Assembly: GCA_019239975.1 (NCBI GenBank)
Contig: JAFAZE010000070.1
Coordinates: forward strand, 62,001 to 126,000
Length of the DNA stretch: 64,000 bases
Direction: 5' to 3'
Origin: Streptosporangiaceae bacterium
GTDB lineage: Bacteria > Actinomycetota > Actinomycetes > Streptosporangiales > Streptosporangiaceae
In this document: in pieces, positions 23,729 to 31,136 of the stretch
How the letters are laid out: every line of letters begins with the position of its first letter
Position numbering within the stretch: position 1 is the first letter of the stretch
Program-made: the position numbers and the translations under genes
Notes under the pieces: generated by a model
What the model was told of the DNA's origin: nothing
The model's database searches: none
Seen by the model: the letters and a program-made list of their open reading frames with translations, nothing else

Positions 23729-24946
23729 GTGTCCCGGCGCCCGTACACGCTGCTGAGCTGCGCCGTTTCCGCCGACGGCTGCCTGGACGACGCGTCCGGT
23801 GAGCGCCTGGTCCTGTCCGGCGCCGAGGACCTGGACCGGGTGGACGAGCTGCGCGCCGGGTGTGACGCGATCCTGGTCGGCGCGGGCACGATCCGCGCGG
23901 ACGACCCGCGGCTGCTGATCCGGTCGCCCGGCCGCCGCGACCGCCGGGCGGCCCGCGGCCTCCCGCCGCACCCGCTGCGCGTCACGCTGACCGCCAGCGG
24001 CGGCCTCGACCCCGCCGCGCGCTTCTTCACCGGGCCCGGCGGCCCACCGCTGGTGTACTGCGCCACCCCCGCGGCCGGCGCCCTGCGGGCACGGCTGGGG
24101 GAGGCCGCCGTAGTCATGGACGCGGGTGACCCGGCATCGCTCCGTGCCGTTCTTTCAGATTTGACCGAACGGGGCGTGGCCCGACTTCTCGTCGAAGGCG
24201 GCTCCCAGGTGCTGCGTGAGGCGCTCACCGGGGATCTCGCCGACGAGCTGCACCTCGCGGTCGCGCCGTTCTTCGTCGGGGACGCGGCGGCACCCCGCTT
24301 CGGCCTGCCCGGGGCGTATCCGCACACCGTCGCGGACCCGATGACGCCGGCCGAAGTCCGGCGGGCCGGCCCGGTGGCGCTGCTGCACTACCTGCTCGGC
24401 CCCGGCGGCGCGGACCGCCGGTTCCTGCGCTGGGCGGTCGAGCTGTCCCGGCTGTGCCCGCCGTCCGCCACGGCGTTCTCCGTCGGCGCTGTCGTCGTGA
24501 GCTCCTCCGGTGAGGTCCTGTCCACCGGCTACTCCCGCGAGCAGCAGGACCACGATCACGCGGAGGAGGTGGCGCTCCGCAAGCTGGGCTCGGCTCTCCC
24601 GCAACGCGCGCTGCCCCCCGCCGCCGCGCCGCTGCCCGCCGCCGCGCCGCCTGGTGCGGTGTCGCCTGGTGCCGCGTCGCACCCCCCCGACCCGCGCCTT
24701 CGCGGCGCGACCCTCTACAGCTCGCTGGTCCCCTGCGGCGCGCGGGCGTCACGCCCGGTCACCTGCGTCCAGCACATCCTCGCGGCCGGCATCCCCCGCG
24801 TGGTCTTCGCCTGGCGCGAGCCCGAGCTGTTCACCGCCGGCGAAGGCGCCGGCCAGCTCCGCGCCGCCGGCGTCGAGGTGATCGAGATCCCCGCCCTGGC
24901 CCCCGAGGCCGCCGCCGTCAACGCCCACCTGGTGGCCCAGGACTGA
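23729..24946 (+). CDS. Fusion of RibD-type reductase domain and RibD-type deaminase domain, in reversed order
   Basis: Residues 1 to about 215 form a RibD C-terminal-like pyrimidine reductase (RPYTLLSCAVSADGCLDD, ILVGAGTIRADDPRLL, LVEGGSQVLREALTG). Residues about 225-405 form a cytidine-deaminase-fold domain with zinc ligands HAE at 277-279, Cys336 in VPCGA and Cys346, the long PC-x9-C spacing typical of RibD deaminases. In canonical RibD the deaminase comes first; here it is second. An alanine/proline insert (about 295-322) separates the two zinc motifs. GTG 23729 has GAGGGAG upstream. A riboflavin or related pyrimidine role is likely; the exact substrate is unknown. Confidence 0.85.
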   Translation: MSRRPYTLLSCAVSADGCLDDASGERLVLSGAEDLDRVDELRAGCDAILVGAGTIRADDPRLLIRSPGRRDRRAARGLPPHPLRVTLTASGGLDPAARFFTGPGGPPLVYCATPAAGALRARLGEAAVVMDAGDPASLRAVLSDLTERGVARLLVEGGSQVLREALTGDLADELHLAVAPFFVGDAAAPRFGLPGAYPHTVADPMTPAEVRRAGPVALLHYLLGPGGADRRFLRWAVELSRLCPPSATAFSVGAVVVSSSGEVLSTGYSREQQDHDHAEEVALRKLGSALPQRALPPAAAPLPAAAPPGAVSPGAASHPPDPRLRGATLYSSLVPCGARASRPVTCVQHILAAGIPRVVFAWREPELFTAGEGAGQLRAAGVEVIEIPALAPEAAAVNAHLVAQD

Positions 24947-25217
24947 CGCGGTCCCCCTCGCTCCGCCCCCGTTCGGCACCCTCCGCGCCCCACCCTCTCC
25001 GCGCCCCACCCCCTCGCGCCCCGCCCGCTCCACGCCGTGCCCGCTCCGCTCCCGCCCCGCTCCGCGCCGTGCCCGCTCCGCTCCCCACCCCCTTCGCGCC
25101 GTGTCCGCTTCGCGCTGACGCGGGCCACGCGCCCCTCTGCAGCGCGGCGCTCCCGCGCGCCTCGCCTCGCGTCCCGCGTTGCCTTGGCCCCCGCCTCCCT
25201 CCGGGCGGCTCGTTGCC
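24947..25217 (+). other. C-rich, G-poor stretch after the reductase-deaminase gene (possible Rho site)
   Basis: Downstream of the + strand gene the RNA-like strand is strikingly rich in C and T runs (CCCGCTCCGCTCC-type text, about 24952-25115) with few G. Such C>G bias is what Rho loading sites need. No gene is credible here. Confidence 0.4.
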
Positions 25218-25247
25218 AATCTGAGCCGGTCATAACCGGCTCAGATT
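25218..25247. terminator. Perfect 13-bp hairpin between convergent genes
   Basis: Arms AATCTGAGCCGGT (25218-25230) and its complement (25235-25247) flank a 4-nt CATA loop. It lies between the convergent reductase-deaminase and LuxR genes and can serve both strands. CTGAGCCGGT is repeated once more just after the hairpin. Confidence 0.75.
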
Positions 25248-25337
25248 TCCACTGAGCCGGTTGCCTCTTCGCGCCCGGCCTCCGCGCGGCCCTCGCCCCG
25301 GCCGCTCCTGAGCCACCGGCGCGGGCCCGTACATCAC

Positions 25338-28157
25338 TCACGGGCGGCGGGCGCTCAGGGCTGCGGCGAGCCCCGGGCGTGAGCTGATGCCGAGCTTTCC
25401 GTATGTGCTCGTCAGGTGGGTTTCCACGGTCCGCTGGGTGATGAAGAGGGCCTGCGCGATCTGCCGGTTCGTCCGCCCGTTCGCCGCCATCTCGGCGACC
25501 CGCAGCTCGCTCGGCGTAAGCGCGTCACGCCCCCGCATGGCGGCGCGGCGCGGCCTGCTGCCGGCCGCCACGAGTTCCTGCCGGGCCCGGTCCGCGATGG
25601 CAAGGCCGCCCAGTGCGTAGGCGAGGTCCAGGCTCTCGCGGAGGTACTCGCGGGCTGTGGTGCGCGCACCGGCCCTCCGCTGCGCCGCCCCCAGGTCCAG
25701 CAGGGCCCGCGCAAGCTCAAGCCGCCCGGAGGAGTCGCGCAGCACACGCACGGCCTCGGTCAGCGACTCGATGCCGCGATCGCCGTCGGCGACCAGACCG
25801 GCGGCACGCAGCGCGACGCCGATCGCGCGGGCAGCGCCCCAGTGGCGGGCGAGGCTGATCTCTTCGGCGCACAGGCGGCCGGCTTCCTTCCGGTCACCGA
25901 GGGCGCCAAGCGACAGCGCCGCCTGCGAGCGCCACGGCATCAGCGCGGGGTTGTGGATTCCCCAGCGCTCCGCGAGCTCCCCGGCCGTCAGCATGTCGGC
26001 AACTGCCGCGTCGTGTTCCCCGGTCGCGGCGAGCAGGCATCCGCGGGCGAACCGGGCGACGTTGTACGGCCAGGTCGCCTCCAATTGCCCGGTCAGGTTG
26101 CGGGCGGCGAGCATCGCGCGCGCCTCTTCGATCGCACCCCGGTCAGCGAGCGCGGGGATCATGAACGCCGTGGCGATCACCGAGATCCATTCGTCGCCGC
26201 CCGCCGTCGCCTGGTGCCCGTACGCGAGAACCTCGCCGGTGTCGCCGCCGTACTGGGCGATCACCGCTGCAGCCGAGGCGGCGACCGCGGACGCCAGCTC
26301 CCATCCCCGCTGCTGCGCCAGCCGCAGCCAGGCCTGCGCCGCCTCCCACGCCTCCGCGGTCAGGTCGGCGAACACCAGGACGGAGACCGCCTCGGGCAGC
26401 GCGCTCGACGTCAGCGACATCAGCCGCGGCGTTGCCCGGACCGCCTCGCGCGCGTGCCGGACCGCCAGCTCGCGCTCCTCGCCGGCGGCGGTGAGCTCGA
26501 TCGCCAGGTTGGCATGCAGCTGGGGATCAAGCTCCTCGCCGGCCGCAGCCCGCGCCTGGAGCCGGTGCAGTATCGGCCCGGTGACCGGGCGGGTGCTGAG
26601 GTCCCAGCGCGCGACGTTGAGCAGCGCGGCCTGCAGCGACATGGCGATCGCCGAGTGCTCGTCGCCGTGTTCACCGGTCTGCGCCCGCAACACCTTGACG
26701 GCCTCGGCGAAGCGCCCGCACAGCGCGAGCGCCTGACTGAGCGCGAGCGCTATCTCGGCGCGGCGCGGCCACTCCGCGCTCCGCGCCAGCGCGTCGGCCA
26801 GGTGCCCCGCGGCCGCCGCCGGCGCATAGAAGGTCTCGGACTTTCCCAGCTCGAACAGCACGTCGCGGCGGGCGTCCGGTGGCGGCGGCTCGGCGAGCGC
26901 GCGTTCCAGGCATTGCGTCGCGATGTCCGGCGCGCCGCGGCTGCGCGCGTCCGCGGCGGCCCGGCGCAGCCTGTCCACCATCCATGGGTCCCCGGCCGCG
27001 GCGGCGGCCAGCAGGTGGACGGCCATCACCTCCGACGGCGCGTCCTCGTCATCCAGCATGCGCGCCGCGCGCTTGTGCCAGCCCTGCCGCAGCGGAGGCG
27101 CCAGGTCCTCGTACACGGCGGAGCGGACCAGCGGGTGCACGAAACCCAGCTCCCGTTCCCCTTCGATGAGCCGCTCCGCCATCAGCATGCTGACCGCCTC
27201 GGCACACGTGTCGGCGTCGAGCCGGGCGAGCTTGGCGGCCCGCTCGGTCGTGGCGGCGGTGCCGAGCACGGCGATGGCGCGCGCCGCGGCCAGCGCCGCG
27301 GGCGGCATCCGCCCGAGCTGCAGCAGGACACTTCGGGAGACCGTGCCGGGGGTCAGCCGGCGCAGGTGCGGGACCTCGGCGTCCGTTCCCCGCACGCCCT
27401 CGGCCGCCAGGCTGGCGACCAGGCCCTGGACCAGCAGCGGGTTGCCGCCGGTCAGTTCCCGGCAGGCCTCCTGGAAGGAGAGCGAGGGGTCGGCGGCCAG
27501 CGTCGTGCCGAGCAAGCTCGCGCAGCCAGCCGCGCTCAGCGCGGCGGGGCGCAGCACCGTCACGTTCGTCTCGGCCGCCAGGCTCGCGGTGAGCGCCTTG
27601 TCATGCGCGCTCCCCGACCGGGGTTCGCGCACGGTGAGCACGAGCAGGACGCGCAGGCCCGCGACCCGGCGCGCCAGGTGCACGACGAACCGCAGCGACG
27701 GCTGATCCGCCCAGTGCACGTCGTCGACCGCGATCACCAGCGGCGCCCGCCGTGCGATGCCGACGGCCAGCCAGTAAAGGCCGTGCAGGACAGCGAACGA
27801 ATCCTCCTCCGCCGACGCCGCGCCCCGGGCCAGCACGGGAGCCGCCAGCCGCACGGCGTCATCCGCCGGCCCGGCCGTGTCGCCGGCGCGGACCTGCGCC
27901 TCGAACAGCTGCCGTACCACTCCCCATGCGTAGCCGTCTTCGAACTCCGCGGCGCGCGCGGTCAGCACCGTCATTCCCGCCCGGGCCGCCTGCTCGCACG
28001 CGTGGCCGAGCAGCCTGGTCTTGCCGATTCCGGCCGGCCCTTCGACCAGCAGCGCGGTCCCCGAGCCGGAACACGCCGACCGGATCGCCGCCGCTATTGC
28101 CCCGAGTTCCGCCGTCCGCTCGAGCAGCAGGCCCGTCGGCGCTCCCCCACCCTCCAT
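25338..28157 (-). CDS. Large ATP-binding LuxR-family regulator (LAL type)
   Basis: A 939-residue transcription regulator. An N-terminal AAA/NACHT-like ATPase has Walker A GPAGIGKT (residues 40-47) and Walker B-like LVIAVDDVHWADQPSLRFV. A long alpha-helical repeat region (about residues 350-850) follows. The C-terminal LuxR helix-turn-helix starts LTPSELRVAEMAANGRTNRQ and contains TQRTVETHLTSTYGKLGI. LAL regulators are usually pathway activators; no obvious target cluster is adjacent. Confidence 0.93.
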   Translation of the reverse strand: MEGGGAPTGLLLERTAELGAIAAAIRSACSGSGTALLVEGPAGIGKTRLLGHACEQAARAGMTVLTARAAEFEDGYAWGVVRQLFEAQVRAGDTAGPADDAVRLAAPVLARGAASAEEDSFAVLHGLYWLAVGIARRAPLVIAVDDVHWADQPSLRFVVHLARRVAGLRVLLVLTVREPRSGSAHDKALTASLAAETNVTVLRPAALSAAGCASLLGTTLAADPSLSFQEACRELTGGNPLLVQGLVASLAAEGVRGTDAEVPHLRRLTPGTVSRSVLLQLGRMPPAALAAARAIAVLGTAATTERAAKLARLDADTCAEAVSMLMAERLIEGERELGFVHPLVRSAVYEDLAPPLRQGWHKRAARMLDDEDAPSEVMAVHLLAAAAAGDPWMVDRLRRAAADARSRGAPDIATQCLERALAEPPPPDARRDVLFELGKSETFYAPAAAAGHLADALARSAEWPRRAEIALALSQALALCGRFAEAVKVLRAQTGEHGDEHSAIAMSLQAALLNVARWDLSTRPVTGPILHRLQARAAAGEELDPQLHANLAIELTAAGEERELAVRHAREAVRATPRLMSLTSSALPEAVSVLVFADLTAEAWEAAQAWLRLAQQRGWELASAVAASAAAVIAQYGGDTGEVLAYGHQATAGGDEWISVIATAFMIPALADRGAIEEARAMLAARNLTGQLEATWPYNVARFARGCLLAATGEHDAAVADMLTAGELAERWGIHNPALMPWRSQAALSLGALGDRKEAGRLCAEEISLARHWGAARAIGVALRAAGLVADGDRGIESLTEAVRVLRDSSGRLELARALLDLGAAQRRAGARTTAREYLRESLDLAYALGGLAIADRARQELVAAGSRPRRAAMRGRDALTPSELRVAEMAANGRTNRQIAQALFITQRTVETHLTSTYGKLGISSRPGLAAALSARRP

Positions 28158-28228
28158 GCCGGTGATCGTAAGCCGCGATGATCAACCATGCCATGGCCTG
28201 CGGGCCAAATAACCGCGGGCAGCGAGCC

Positions 28229-28255
28229 GCGGGCGCCTCCGAAGGAGACGCCCGC
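28229..28255 (-). terminator. Hairpin after the secreted-protein gene
   Basis: Stem GCGGGCG/CGCCCGC continued by CTCC/GGAG with one C-A mismatch and a GAA loop. It is 32 nt downstream of the stop of the 28287-28862 gene and upstream of the LuxR gene on the same strand, so it probably separates the two units. Confidence 0.6.
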
Positions 28256-28286
28256 ACCCCCTGCTCTGGCTGGCTCGCTGCTTCGG

Positions 28287-28862
28287 CTACAGCCTGACGC
28301 TCGCCTTCCCGGTGATGGTCTCCTGGTTCGCCACCGGCGTCGCGTTCACGTTGCACGTGCCCTTCGTCCGCGGCGCGAGGAAGAGGTCGCTGATCGTGGC
28401 CTTGCCGGAGCCGCTGATCCCCTTGTACTTCCCGGTCCCGCCGCCCACCGTGAAGCCGCCCGTCGCCTCGAACACGCCCACGCAGGTCTTCGGGTTGAGG
28501 CTCTCCTTGATGATGTGGAACGGCCCGCCGTGGTTGATCTTGAAACTGCCCCCGGGCAGCCGGACCGTATCGGTCGTGTTGCCGGAGATGTCGATCCCCG
28601 CGGCGGTGAACAGCCCGGTCGCGATCACCTGGTACCTGCTCCCACCGGGAAGCGTGGTCATCAGGTAGAACTGCTCGGTGCCCGAGCTCGCCGTGTCGGC
28701 CGGCCGTACCGCGCCGGCCAACCGTACCGCACCGGCCGGCCGGGCCGGGCTGGCGTTCGCGGCGGCGAGTCCCGCTCCGCTCATGACCGCCGCGATCGAG
28801 ATCACCCCGGCCGCCCCGGCCAGCCCCCCGCGTACACTTCTTCCTGCCCCCGTGTGCTTCAC
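28287..28862 (-). CDS. Secreted protein of unknown function, possible allene-oxide-cyclase/dirigent-like barrel
   Basis: 191 residues starting at GTG 28862 with GGAGG seven bases upstream. Residues 1-38 are a signal peptide (GGLAGAAGVISIAAVMSGAG and ALAxA-type end). The mature part is rich in beta strands and has GGFTVGGGTGKYKGISGSG, a loop reminiscent of small eight-stranded barrels of the allene oxide cyclase/dirigent type. Two cysteines (PKTCVG and KGTCNV) may form a disulfide. Function not recognised. Start overlaps the stop of the small upstream gene (GTGA). Confidence 0.8.
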   Translation of the reverse strand: MKHTGAGRSVRGGLAGAAGVISIAAVMSGAGLAAANASPARPAGAVRLAGAVRPADTASSGTEQFYLMTTLPGGSRYQVIATGLFTAAGIDISGNTTDTVRLPGGSFKINHGGPFHIIKESLNPKTCVGVFEATGGFTVGGGTGKYKGISGSGKATISDLFLAPRTKGTCNVNATPVANQETITGKASVRL

Positions 28863-29047
28863 CTATGTTCCTCCGTTCCGTTGTCCCCGCCAGGCACGCT
28901 TGTCACCGCCTGCAGCACCGCGAACAGCTCCGACCAGCCGCTGAAGGCGCGTGCGAGGCCGTCGCGGGACCGCATCACGCCCGCGATCGGCCGCTGATCG
29001 CTGATGATCACCTCGAGCTGCAGGACAACCCGGCGGTGTGTACCCAT
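28859..29047 (-). CDS. Small protein coupled to the secreted protein
   Basis: A 62-residue protein (ATG 29047) with text EVIISDQRPIAGVMRSRDGL then FSGWSELFAVLQAV. The pattern P-I-x-G ... F-x-G-W-x-E-L-F-x-x-L-Q recurs in short actinobacterial proteins that I cannot name. Its TGA overlaps the GTG of the next gene, a typical operon coupling, which is the main evidence that it is real. No signal peptide. Confidence 0.65.
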   Translation of the reverse strand: MGTHRRVVLQLEVIISDQRPIAGVMRSRDGLARAFSGWSELFAVLQAVTSVPGGDNGTEEHR

Positions 29048-29114
29048 ACACCGAATCGTCCGCCCATGGCGCCATACGCCGCATCACGGTACCCACCACG
29101 GCAATTTGCCCCGC

Positions 29115-29310
29115 CCCACCACGGCACCGTCGGCCGCCTCACCCGCAAGCGCCGTCGGCCGCCTCACGACGGCACTGTCGGCCGCCTCACCACGGCACCG
29201 TCGGCCGCCCCACCACGGCACCGTCGGCCGCCCCACCCGCAAGCGCCGTCGGCCGCCCCACCACGGCACCGTCGGCCGCCCCACCCGCAAGCGCCGTCGG
29301 CCCGCCGCCT
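29115..29310 (+). repeat. Minisatellite of eight 23-25 bp units in two alternating types
   Basis: Type A has core CACCACGGCACCGTCGG (23 bp); type B has core CACCCGCAAGCGCCGTCGG (25 bp). The order is A B A' A A B A B, which suggests duplication of A-B blocks. Confidence 0.9.
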
Positions 29311-29543
29311 CACCACAACGCTCACGGCCACGTCCACCACATCCACCACGGCATTCACCAGCCTGCGCCCCCTACTTTCCACCAAAATTTCCCGGTTGAG
29401 CATGTCGTGGAAATCCCGGGTCGTATATGGCACCGTAATATCCACAACGACAAATGTGCCCCTACTATCGTGGAAATTACGGGCCTGTATGCGGCTCTGG
29501 CATGTATTTCTGGGTGGTCACGGTCCGGGCTCACGATGGCGGC

Positions 29544-29598
29544 GGGGCCGCTGGCGCATTTGGCCCCGCCCAGTGGGGCCGCTGGCGCATTTGGCCCC
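29544..29598 (+). repeat. Two copies of the 24-nt GGGGCC...GGCCCC element
   Basis: Identical copies at 29544-29567 and 29575-29598, separated by GCCCAGT. The arms GGGGCC/GGCCCC enclose a 12-nt centre (GCTGGCGCATTT). Further copies are at 33063 and 49226-49280. Confidence 0.9.
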
Positions 29599-29754
29599 GC
29601 GCAGGGGCCGGCTGTCGGCAGCGGGGGTGTTACCCGTGGGCATGGAGGGCGGGTAGCGATCGATGAGGTTAGTTACCAGCCCGAGATTTTAAGCCAGAGC
29701 CTGTACGCGGTCCTGAAATCTCCGTGATCATGGCACCGCGGCCCGCGCTAGCCA

Positions 29755-29845
29755 CGCAGCGGCGGCCCTGGGGGAGGCAGCGGCGGCCTGGGGAGGGGGT
29801 GGCGGCCCAGGGAGGCAGCGGCGGCCTGGGGAGGCAGCGGTTACC
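29755..29845 (+). repeat. Degenerate tandem array, unit about 19 bp
   Basis: Units built on GGCAGCGGCGGCCTGGGGA recur about four times with small variations. Confidence 0.75.
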
Positions 29846-29876
29846 AAAGGTGCGATGGACCGGAAGGCCGCCACGA

Positions 29877-29933
29877 GCTGCAAAGGCGGCGGTGGGCTGC
29901 GAAGGCGGCGGTGGGCTGCAAAGGCGGCGCATG
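29877..29933 (+). repeat. Tandem array of three 19-bp units
   Basis: GCTGCAAAGGCGGCGGTGG is repeated almost exactly three times just upstream of the 29960 gene. Confidence 0.85.
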
Positions 29934-29959
29934 GCGCCGAGTGATAAAGGAGCGACTTT

Positions 29960-30313
29960 ATGACGGAGTACCTCCCCGAATTATCTCCGAGCCGATACCG
30001 GATCCGCCGGCCGACAGCGCGCTGCCGATGCTCCTCCCGGCCAGGAGGCGGACCTGGCCGTCGTTCCTGGAAATTCGTTGGAGTTGCCGGCAACGGGACC
30101 AGGCTGATCCTCGCGGTTTTCAGCACATCGGAAGGCTGGCCGGCCGTGGGAGCCCAGGTCACGGAGACGGCGAGTGATGTCACTGTGGCGGTGTACGGTC
30201 GGCGCATACCGCCCGGGCCAGGCACTATGCAGCACATCACCCGGGTCGTGGCTGTGCACATTGCCCAGCCGCTCGGTTCGCGGCGGCTCCGGGCGATACG
30301 AGCGCGCACCTAG
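29960..30313 (+). CDS. Hypothetical protein, possibly frame-damaged
   Basis: A 117-residue frame from ATG 29960 with a strong site (AAAGGAG) eight bases upstream. The second half (LILAVFSTSEGWPAVGAQVT, then VTVAVYGRR and HIAQPLGSRRL) looks like a genuine small beta-rich domain known from actinobacterial hypothetical proteins. Between about 29993 and 30065 the third-position GC is higher in the +1 frame (reading EPIPDPPADSALPMLLPARR), so two compensating shifts may have altered this segment. Either a variable N-terminus or a decaying gene. Confidence 0.45.
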   Translation: MTEYLPELSPSRYRIRRPTARCRCSSRPGGGPGRRSWKFVGVAGNGTRLILAVFSTSEGWPAVGAQVTETASDVTVAVYGRRIPPGPGTMQHITRVVAVHIAQPLGSRRLRAIRART

Positions 30314-30344
30314 TGCCGCGGAACGGACGGCCCCGCGAACCGGG

Positions 30345-31136
30345 TCAGAACAGGGTGTCGTCGCGTTCGATACCGCGCATCCGGTCATAGTCCAGCACCA
30401 CGCAGCGGATACCGCGGTCCTCGGCCAGCGTCCGCGCCTGGGGCCTGATCGACTGTGCGGCCAGGATACCTTTCACCGGGCGCAGAAGCGGGTCCCGGTT
30501 CAGCAGGTCCAGGTAGCGGGTCAGCTGCTCTACCGCGTCGATTCCGGCGACCCGCTTGACCTCCACCGCCACGTGGCCCCCTCCCCCCGAAACGGGGGCT
30601 TCCACGTGGCCTCCCCCCGAAACGACGGCTTCGCCGGAAACTGCCCCGCCGGAAACTGCCCCGCCGGAAACTGCCCCGCCGGTCTCGCCGCGGCGCTTGA
30701 CCTCGATGGCGACGTTCGCGGCGTCGCGGCACATGATGTCCACCGGGCCGATCGGGGTCGGGTACTCGCGGCGAACCAGCCGCCAGCAGTCGCCGAGCAG
30801 GTGGAGCTGGACGGCGAGCAGCTCCTGCAGGTGCGCCTCCACGCCGTCCTTGACCAGCCCGGGATCGGTGCCCAGGTCGACGGAGGTGTCGCTGACGGTC
30901 TCCTCGATGGTGATCGTGAGCGTCTCGCCGGACTTGTTGGTCACCGTCCACCTGCCGGGCTGCTCGGTCAGCCTGCACGGCGGCGACATCCAGTTCAGCG
31001 GCTTGTACGACCCACCGTCCGAGTGGACGAGGACCGAGCCGTCGGCCTTGACGATCAGCAGCCGGAGGGCAGCGGGAAGGTGGGCGGTGAGCCTGCCGTC
31101 GTAGTCAACGCTGCAGCGGGCGATAACGAGACGCAC
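30345..31136 (-). CDS. nucS: Endonuclease NucS (EndoMS) with repeat insertion in the catalytic motif
   Basis: Mismatch-specific endonuclease of actinobacterial non-MutSL mismatch repair. The N-terminal DNA-binding/dimer half (1-115) and C-terminal RecB-like nuclease half are recognisable: Asp133 in [11 protein letters not shown], then EVK at 145-147, and downstream [15 protein letters not shown] and [20 protein letters not shown]. Between them, residues 151-188 are a Gly/Ala/Val/Ser repeat insertion, after which a second EVK (192-194) leads into the normal [10 protein letters not shown]. The family is about 220-225 residues; this one is 263. The C-terminus DDTLF resembles the clamp-binding end of relatives. 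GTG start. Activity is uncertain. Confidence 0.93.
30569..30685 (-). repeat. Two tandem arrays inside nucS
   Basis: Three 15-bp units (core CTGCCCCGCCGGAAA on the + strand; 30641-30685) and two 30-33 bp units starting CCACGTGGC (30569-30601 and 30602-30631). The latter contain a CCCCCGAAACGGGGG hairpin. All periods are multiples of three. Confidence 0.9.

Follow-up and report, generated by a model that had tools for sequence, protein, structure and literature searches.

The present analysis concerns nucS, the gene of a mismatch-repair endonuclease, in a 64,000-bp stretch of a Streptosporangiaceae genome (assembly GCA_019239975.1, contig JAFAZE010000070.1, positions 62,001 to 126,000), which as a whole is referred to as the window. 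The gene product harbors a repetitive insertion with an E-V-K motif on each side. On our best reading, temperate phages use nucS as an attachment site and bring along an in-frame replacement of its catalytic half, and the copy in the window is an old relic of such a phage. We assign a probability of about 0.78 to the explanation that the gene is a chimera generated when a temperate actinophage or a phage-derived element integrated site-specifically, and the odd repeat between the two motifs looks like the scar of a viral insertion, not like simple damage.

The interrupted nucS gene

NucS is described as the enzyme of a non-canonical mismatch repair in actinobacteria lacking MutS and MutL, the loss of which leads to strong mutators (PMC5290159). 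The genome of the window (G000), a fragmented draft of 176 contigs and 93% completeness, revealed a single nucS match and no match to MutS_V, the control being positive in 11 of 14 genomes, so that the role of mismatch endonuclease without MutS, ascribed to NucS in a first-pass annotation of the sequence, falls to the sole candidate found. Both Pfam domains were detected in the protein (NucS_N with 92.5 bits, cut-off 23.9; NucS_C with 127.2 bits, cut-off 24), and the match to NucS_C consists of two stretches, i.e., it is interrupted. While an ordinary nucS reads ..VAVEIKRRGEIDGVEQL.. without insertion, the window copy harbors 38 additional residues (151–188, exactly positions 30573–30686) between its two E-V-K motifs, and the distance from Asp133 to the working E-x-K amounts to 59 residues instead of about 14. 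The insertion is real; its extent and the 15-bp tandem units within it, both of which had been annotated before, were confirmed. The features of the gene are listed in the table.

Features of the nucS region, in window coordinates
Feature	Position	Strand	Basis
nucS open reading frame (ORF), 263 amino acids, GTG start, intact and open throughout; read as a host-phage chimera	30345..31136	-	
5' half of host origin (residues 1-138), comprising the N-terminal domain and Asp133	30723..31136	-	Identities to G376-G379 and N-half tree
Catalytic Asp133 in PVD, corresponding to 5gke position 165	30738..30740	-	phmmer alignment
First E-V-K, residues 145-147	30696..30704	-	
First E-x-K block AIEVKRRGE, residues 143-151; read as a remnant of the host attachment site; disordered in the model	30684..30710	-	
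Putative decayed crossover codons: TGG here, IDG in relatives	30675..30683	-	Junction comparison
Linker, residues 155-188; putative read-through of an attP arm, probably tandem-expanded later	30573..30674	-	
15-bp tandem array, 3.4 copies, 100% match	30632..30682	.	
Phage-type 3' half, residues 189-263	30345..30572	-	18-row set of the C-half tree (starred, support 98); alignment
Second E-V-K, residues 192-194, likely catalytic pair; aligned with 5gke 179 and 181	30555..30563	-	
5.4 kb from the conserved deaminase gene to nucS: LuxR-type regulator, 191-amino-acid secreted-like protein, tandem repeats	24938..30344	.	

Occurrence of the insertion in other genomes

Matches to nucS were found in 93 of 100 genomes (G000 included) and, in an order-wide profile search, in 342 of 345. 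At least six genomes (G000, G040, G046, G120, G114, and G121) aligned without a break to a model of the interrupted NucS (E ≤ 2.7e-124), while the best match after those six, among the matches listed, was a split alignment with an E value of 6.8e-90. A pattern scan of genome contigs yielded nine stretches, namely from Leucobacter sp. G161, a metagenome-assembled genome (MAG) of the Propionibacteriaceae, G040, G046, G071, and four Solirubrobacterales genes, the last four without insertion. Altogether, an insertion was present at an identical site in nine host genes: those of the window, G040, G046, G114, G120, G121, G071, Leucobacter sp. G161, and the Propionibacteriaceae MAG. The chimeric ORFs are open, the 3' end of the target gene being replaced in frame as in icd-type elements; the G114 copy runs off the end of its contig. 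The state of the gene varies inside genera, G120 and G121 being interrupted in contrast to G118 and G054, and G114 in contrast to G049.

Since eight further genomes carry the insertion at the same place, it is due neither to chance nor to a single assembly error. An assembly or binning artefact might be suspected in view of the fragmented drafts represented by the window genome and several others; with nine genomes affected, among them the draft of a Leucobacter isolate, and with a single contig of G071 bearing the chimera, the insert, and the displaced half, we regard it as scarcely conceivable.

Two ancestries in one gene

All proteins were cut at the hairpin, and trees were calculated from the N parts (89 rows) and C parts (91 rows) by a quick method with few columns. 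In the N-half tree, the nine interrupted rows were scattered, requiring nine changes, at least four of which are forced by starred branches, and a single clade comprising them was rejected (approximately unbiased test, p-AU 2.6e-9). In the C-half tree, the nine interrupted and two phage rows (described below) required five changes, none of 500 shuffles was as clustered, and a single clade of these rows was not rejected (p 0.51). A set of 18 rows with a support of 98 comprised the nine interrupted and the two phage rows, the uninterrupted genes of G059, G030, and G004, and the four Solirubrobacterales genes.

Identities pointed in the same direction. Compared to the ordinary nucS of G379, the window protein shared 133 of 138 residues in the N part (96%) and 56 of 74 in the C part (76%), and its N half was 91–92% identical to those of G376, G377, and G378. 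The C halves nearest to it were those of G040 (88%), G046 (86%), and G030 (84%), followed by the phages with 82 and 81%. Similarly, G114 and its genus-mate G049 shared 90% in the N part and 69% in the C part, while the C half of G114 was 89% identical to that of phage contig L127; forcing it together with G049 was rejected (p 0.019). Five control pairs of ordinary genes revealed N/C identities of 93/85, 93/89, 91/89, 88/88, and 82/92%. Since the partners had been picked for high N identity, a small gap between the halves is partly expected, but not one of 96/76 or 90/69%. The contrast was weaker for the pairs of G120, G040, and G046 (p 0.11 to 0.015).

These results bear on the earlier proposal that a repeat insertion splits and duplicates the EVK motif. 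The insertion with its two E-V-K motifs stood up to analysis; a duplication by tandem repeats did not, because the second block belongs to a different NucS lineage and arrives with a foreign 3' half. The corresponding scenario, in which the E-x-K strand was copied by slippage within the gene, followed by expansion of the repeat and without any foreign DNA, could appeal to the 15-bp and longer tandem units of the window linker and to the likewise repetitive linker of G040. However, the second block brings a different C half, that of the window groups with C halves from other families and from phages, phages carry exactly such a half, and displaced halves exist. As a source of the second motif, tandem duplication was rejected since the two halves differ in ancestry; we consider it largely refuted and very improbable. 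In view of the short, low-complexity linkers, an intein or intron was set aside.

Three genes of the set, L031, L033, and L034 (from G059, G030, and G004), possess a phage-type C half without insertion (KRRAT/KRRAG..DAVEQL) and are possibly collapsed chimeras.

The second E-x-K as the probable active motif

The second E-x-K was retained in all nine interrupted genes; the first was intact in five (window, G071, G114, Leucobacter, and Propionibacteriaceae) and changed in four (G040, G046, G120, and G121). At the sequence level alone, both E-V-K motifs of the window align with the same E-x-K of 5gke. In the phmmer alignment, D133, E192, and K194 correspond to positions 165, 179, and 181 of 5gke, which we take to be the catalytic residues. 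A structure model, as had also been proposed in the first-pass annotation, was obtained with 10 sequences (mean predicted local distance difference test (pLDDT) score 76, predicted template modelling (pTM) score 0.49). Here, the first motif lies inside residues 141–185 with pLDDT values below 50, the insertion forming a disordered loop at the hairpin, while the second is located on a confident strand (188–197, block mean 93) after strand 132–138, which bears Asp133. The model matched the fold of 5gke_A (Z 16.7, 203 residues aligned, root-mean-square deviation 5.7) and 2vld_A (Z 16.7). Conservation (9/9 against 5/9) and the place on a confident catalytic strand make it very likely that the second EVK is the active one; of the options allowed earlier, that either EVK or neither forms the active site, the second is thus favored.

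Phages carrying a nucS 3' half

A search of viral contigs with the C half of Leucobacter resulted in two contigs of tailed phages with sizes of 39 and 44 kb (L126 and L127), and two further viral scans, the third with an ordinary C half, returned the same two contigs only. Each codes for the nucS 3' half only, starting some 10–20 codons ahead of AVEVKRRAG and ending with ..LF, divergently oriented from an adjoining gene for a large serine integrase of 469 or 554 amino acids. The integrases, 38–41% identical to each other, possess Resolvase, Recombinase, and zinc-ribbon domains and belong to PHROG 95, as in temperate actinophages with large serine integrases; compared to isolated phages, they reached at best 27% identity over most of their length among the matches listed. 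Structural genes were identified in both cases: portal, major head, and tape-measure genes on the first contig, and genes for a head protease, a tape-measure, and a minor tail protein on the second. Since integrase gene and 3' half lie side by side, the contigs look like unintegrated phage genomes, and a ratio of nonsynonymous to synonymous substitutions (dN/dS) of 0.12 between the two 3' halves suggests selection on the protein product. Searches of phage and plasmid collections with NucS C halves revealed full-length genes only and no half genes.

Both phages and the nucS region of Leucobacter have in common a gene for a VirD4/TrwB-like ATPase of 746/738 amino acids (L126 8344–10584, L127 7538–9100, L124 6367–8583). 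In the phage collection it gave only weak matches, none of them in actinophage records, which, like the low integrase identity, sets the nucS phages apart from known temperate actinophages. On a plasmid of Miltoncostaea oceani (NZ_CP064357.1), a match to a NucS-domain protein overlaps an annotated site-specific integrase.

Junctions, displaced halves, and neighboring mobile genes

The five readable junctions (Leucobacter, Propionibacteriaceae, G071, G120, and G114) share the host codons up to GA[CT]GG and diverge afterwards. A displaced 3' half was identified in G071, 3.5 kb downstream of nucS on the same contig and strand (E 1.9e-27), and a second one in G381, on another contig than the first piece of the gene; both begin at the same codons, DG/VEQL (the slash marking the junction). 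The two nucS pieces of G381 adjoin homologs of genes that flank the window nucS on opposite sides. At E < 0.1, no displaced 3' half was found in G000, G040, G046, G114, G120, G121, or Leucobacter. The G071 contig displays, in this order, the chimeric nucS, a gene for an SNF2 helicase of 1106 amino acids, and the displaced ordinary 3' half; the helicase (contig C239, L093 2037–5357) has a SWIM finger and is the sole gene recognised in the 3.5-kb insert.

Mobile genes were also detected next to other interrupted copies. Downstream of nucS, Leucobacter harbors the 738-amino-acid homolog (38% and 41% identity) of the 746-amino-acid phage protein together with Lsr2-like, head-like, and minor-tail-like genes, giving the region a prophage-like appearance. 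In G120, an N-terminal fragment of a serine integrase directly follows nucS and is oriented as expected of the far junction. Past this fragment (L088:4058-4090), a tail-like peptide ending in RPKRDELTLF and a stop codon is nearer to the phage tail than to that of the genus-mates, which is only suggestive.

Genome G452 displayed an ordinary nucS followed, about 590 bp downstream (L164 2148–2429), by a fragment whose protein sequence equals that of the host 3' end except for an internal deletion. Since this fragment begins with DGVEQL, the same spot was apparently hit there too, and it may represent an insertion of a second type at the nucS site. In G089, an additional short match to the NucS C half lies 0.5 kb downstream of nucS (C1:1431492-1431608), possibly a displaced remnant.

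No core longer than GG could be fixed at the junction. An alignment of attP on CGGYGT was rejected since it would place an in-frame stop, and the crossover was thus provisionally placed at the GG of the Gly codon (IDG).

A different origin of the foreign half would be gene conversion, i.e., replacement of the 3' half by homologous recombination with the nucS of another bacterium, with the phages capturing their halves secondarily. The uninterrupted genes of G059, G030, and G004 with a C half of the same type would fit such an exchange, as would the window without a visible phage relic. Yet gene conversion would not account for a second E-x-K with its linker recurring at one and the same codon in hosts that are not related, for the displaced 3' halves, or for the phage genes and the serine integrase fragment observed beside nucS, and we consider it unlikely.

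Proposed integration and points against it

Under integration by a phage, its large serine integrase would act on nucS and recombine attP with conserved codons of the host gene (..VAVEIKRRGEIDG/VEQL..), a replacement 3' half being carried directly beside attP. The host 5' half would then read via a short attP-derived linker into the phage half, resulting in one ORF with two E-x-K motifs, while the host's own 3' half would come to lie at the opposite end of the element. The host E-x-K would be stranded before the junction, and that of the phage would complete the active site with Asp133, so that the chimera would presumably be an active mismatch endonuclease.

The window probably went through the same steps. 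The integrated element would have lain in the interval between the deaminase gene and nucS, and it would since have been lost or become unrecognisable, as no phage relic was recognised there. The sequence RRGETGG at the former junction and the repeats of the linker agree with decay of the host motif (from RRGEIDG) and with expansion of an unconstrained loop, which may have grown via 15-bp and 30–33-bp tandem duplications. RibD lies near nucS in G376 and G377; the RibD-nucS spacing is not diagnostic because other relatives vary. Just downstream of nucS, the window is rich in tandem repeats with units of 19, 23, 31, and 48 bp and without a convincing gene (28865–30300).

Several results weigh against this explanation. 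Beside the window nucS, where the minus-strand translation of 28.1–30.4 kb was inspected and tblastn was run with the phage proteins, no displaced half, integrase relic, or phage gene was recognised, and we therefore treat the window as a putative relic and not as a lysogen; three distant matches to integrase models in its genome (contigs C171, C35, and C98) all lie off the nucS contig. Displaced halves were present in just two of the nine interrupted genomes (G071 and G381), and the 3.5-kb insert of G071 did not reveal an integrase, so that it may represent a leftover or an element of a different kind; mobile elements of other types may have played a part in the eight sibling cases. The integrase fragment of G120 is just 28–29% identical to one phage integrase, no close relative of the two phage integrases was found beside nucS in any of the nine genomes, and no complete prophage with both junctions was found in the genomes examined. 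Three short unannotated records of 'Bacteriophage sp.' harbor a full-length NucS, which means that DNA labelled as viral does not always carry half genes. With respect to ancestry, the C-half tree rests on only 75 columns, two ordinary nucS C halves are as near to that of the window (81%) as the phage halves (81–82%), and forcing the window C half together with its N-half relatives G379, G376, and G378 was not rejected (p 0.235). Finally, L054 and L057, two of the nine interrupted genes, were retrieved with a pattern demanding the second motif; the unbiased counts without them are therefore 7/7 for the second and 3/7 for the first E-x-K.

Both L054 and L046 (G064) also possess low-complexity insertions after an SPPC motif in the N-terminal NucS domain.

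Tandem repeats and the state of the enzyme

The first-pass annotation had described NucS as damaged or altered and hinted, without claiming causality, at a link with the short tandem duplications of the genome. Arrays were counted with Tandem Repeats Finder (period ≥ 9, 80% matches) in small samples of 7.9–129 kb per genome. The window genome displayed 3.9 arrays per 10 kb (in 129 kb), above 12 of 14 sampled relatives but within their range of 0–4.0; the interrupted relatives G046, G120, and G040 revealed 1.6, 1.1, and 2.4, respectively. In a review table, nucS deletions in M. smegmatis and C. glutamicum did not raise indels (PMC8228993). As the density lies within the range of the relatives and indels did not rise in the deletions, a causal role of an altered NucS in the tandem repeats of the genome is not supported. 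A hypomorphic enzyme in a mutator cell, with the repeats as a consequence, would agree with this density and with the widened Asp-to-E-x-K gap. On the other hand, the ORF is intact, the second half with its EVK is conserved and shared with phages under apparent purifying selection, the interrupted G046 and G120 are not repeat-rich, and the insertion is modelled as a disordered loop at the hairpin; the claim of damage did not hold, and this scenario appears quite improbable to us.

Relation to known systems

The window protein resembles EndoMS/NucS (5gke and 2vld) in both domains, in its fold, and in the aligned Asp and E-x-K, and differs from it in the distance between these residues, the disordered linker, the stranded first E-x-K, and the phage-type C half. 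Prophage e14 and phage 21 use icd of E. coli as their integration target and rebuild the 3' end of this gene. In the proposed nucS case, the element would likewise bring a substitute 3' end of its target gene, while its target is a mismatch-repair endonuclease, its integrase would be a serine integrase, and the join duplicates a catalytic motif and adds a linker.

The nearest precedent with a mismatch-repair gene as attachment site is SpyCIM1, described as a phage-like island at the 5' end of mutL in Streptococcus pyogenes that silences the gene and makes the host a reversible mutator (PMC4689407). In contrast, the proposed nucS element would lie inside the gene and supply a new in-frame 3' half, so that repair is expected to be kept. 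A literature search of limited depth did not turn up nucS as a reported attachment site, and the word nucS is absent from the available part of a paper on Mycobacterium prophages covering 29 attB sites of M. abscessus (PMC10654092).

If integration into nucS holds true, mismatch repair in a lysogen would depend on phage-encoded catalytic residues, and the influence of phages on mutation and homeologous recombination in their hosts could be tested on this example. It would also add a target of serine integrases that is conserved across actinobacteria, and natural data on the tolerance of a PD-(D/E)xK nuclease to insertions between Asp and E-x-K. A further step, possible though doubtful, is that lysogeny swaps the catalytic C-terminal half of the host's only known mismatch-repair nuclease for a phage one and excision reverts it; as the phage half would be kept by selection though useless outside the lysogen, the phages may tune the mutation rate or the recombination barrier of their lysogens, and abandoned halves, as in the window, would become the permanent enzyme of the host.
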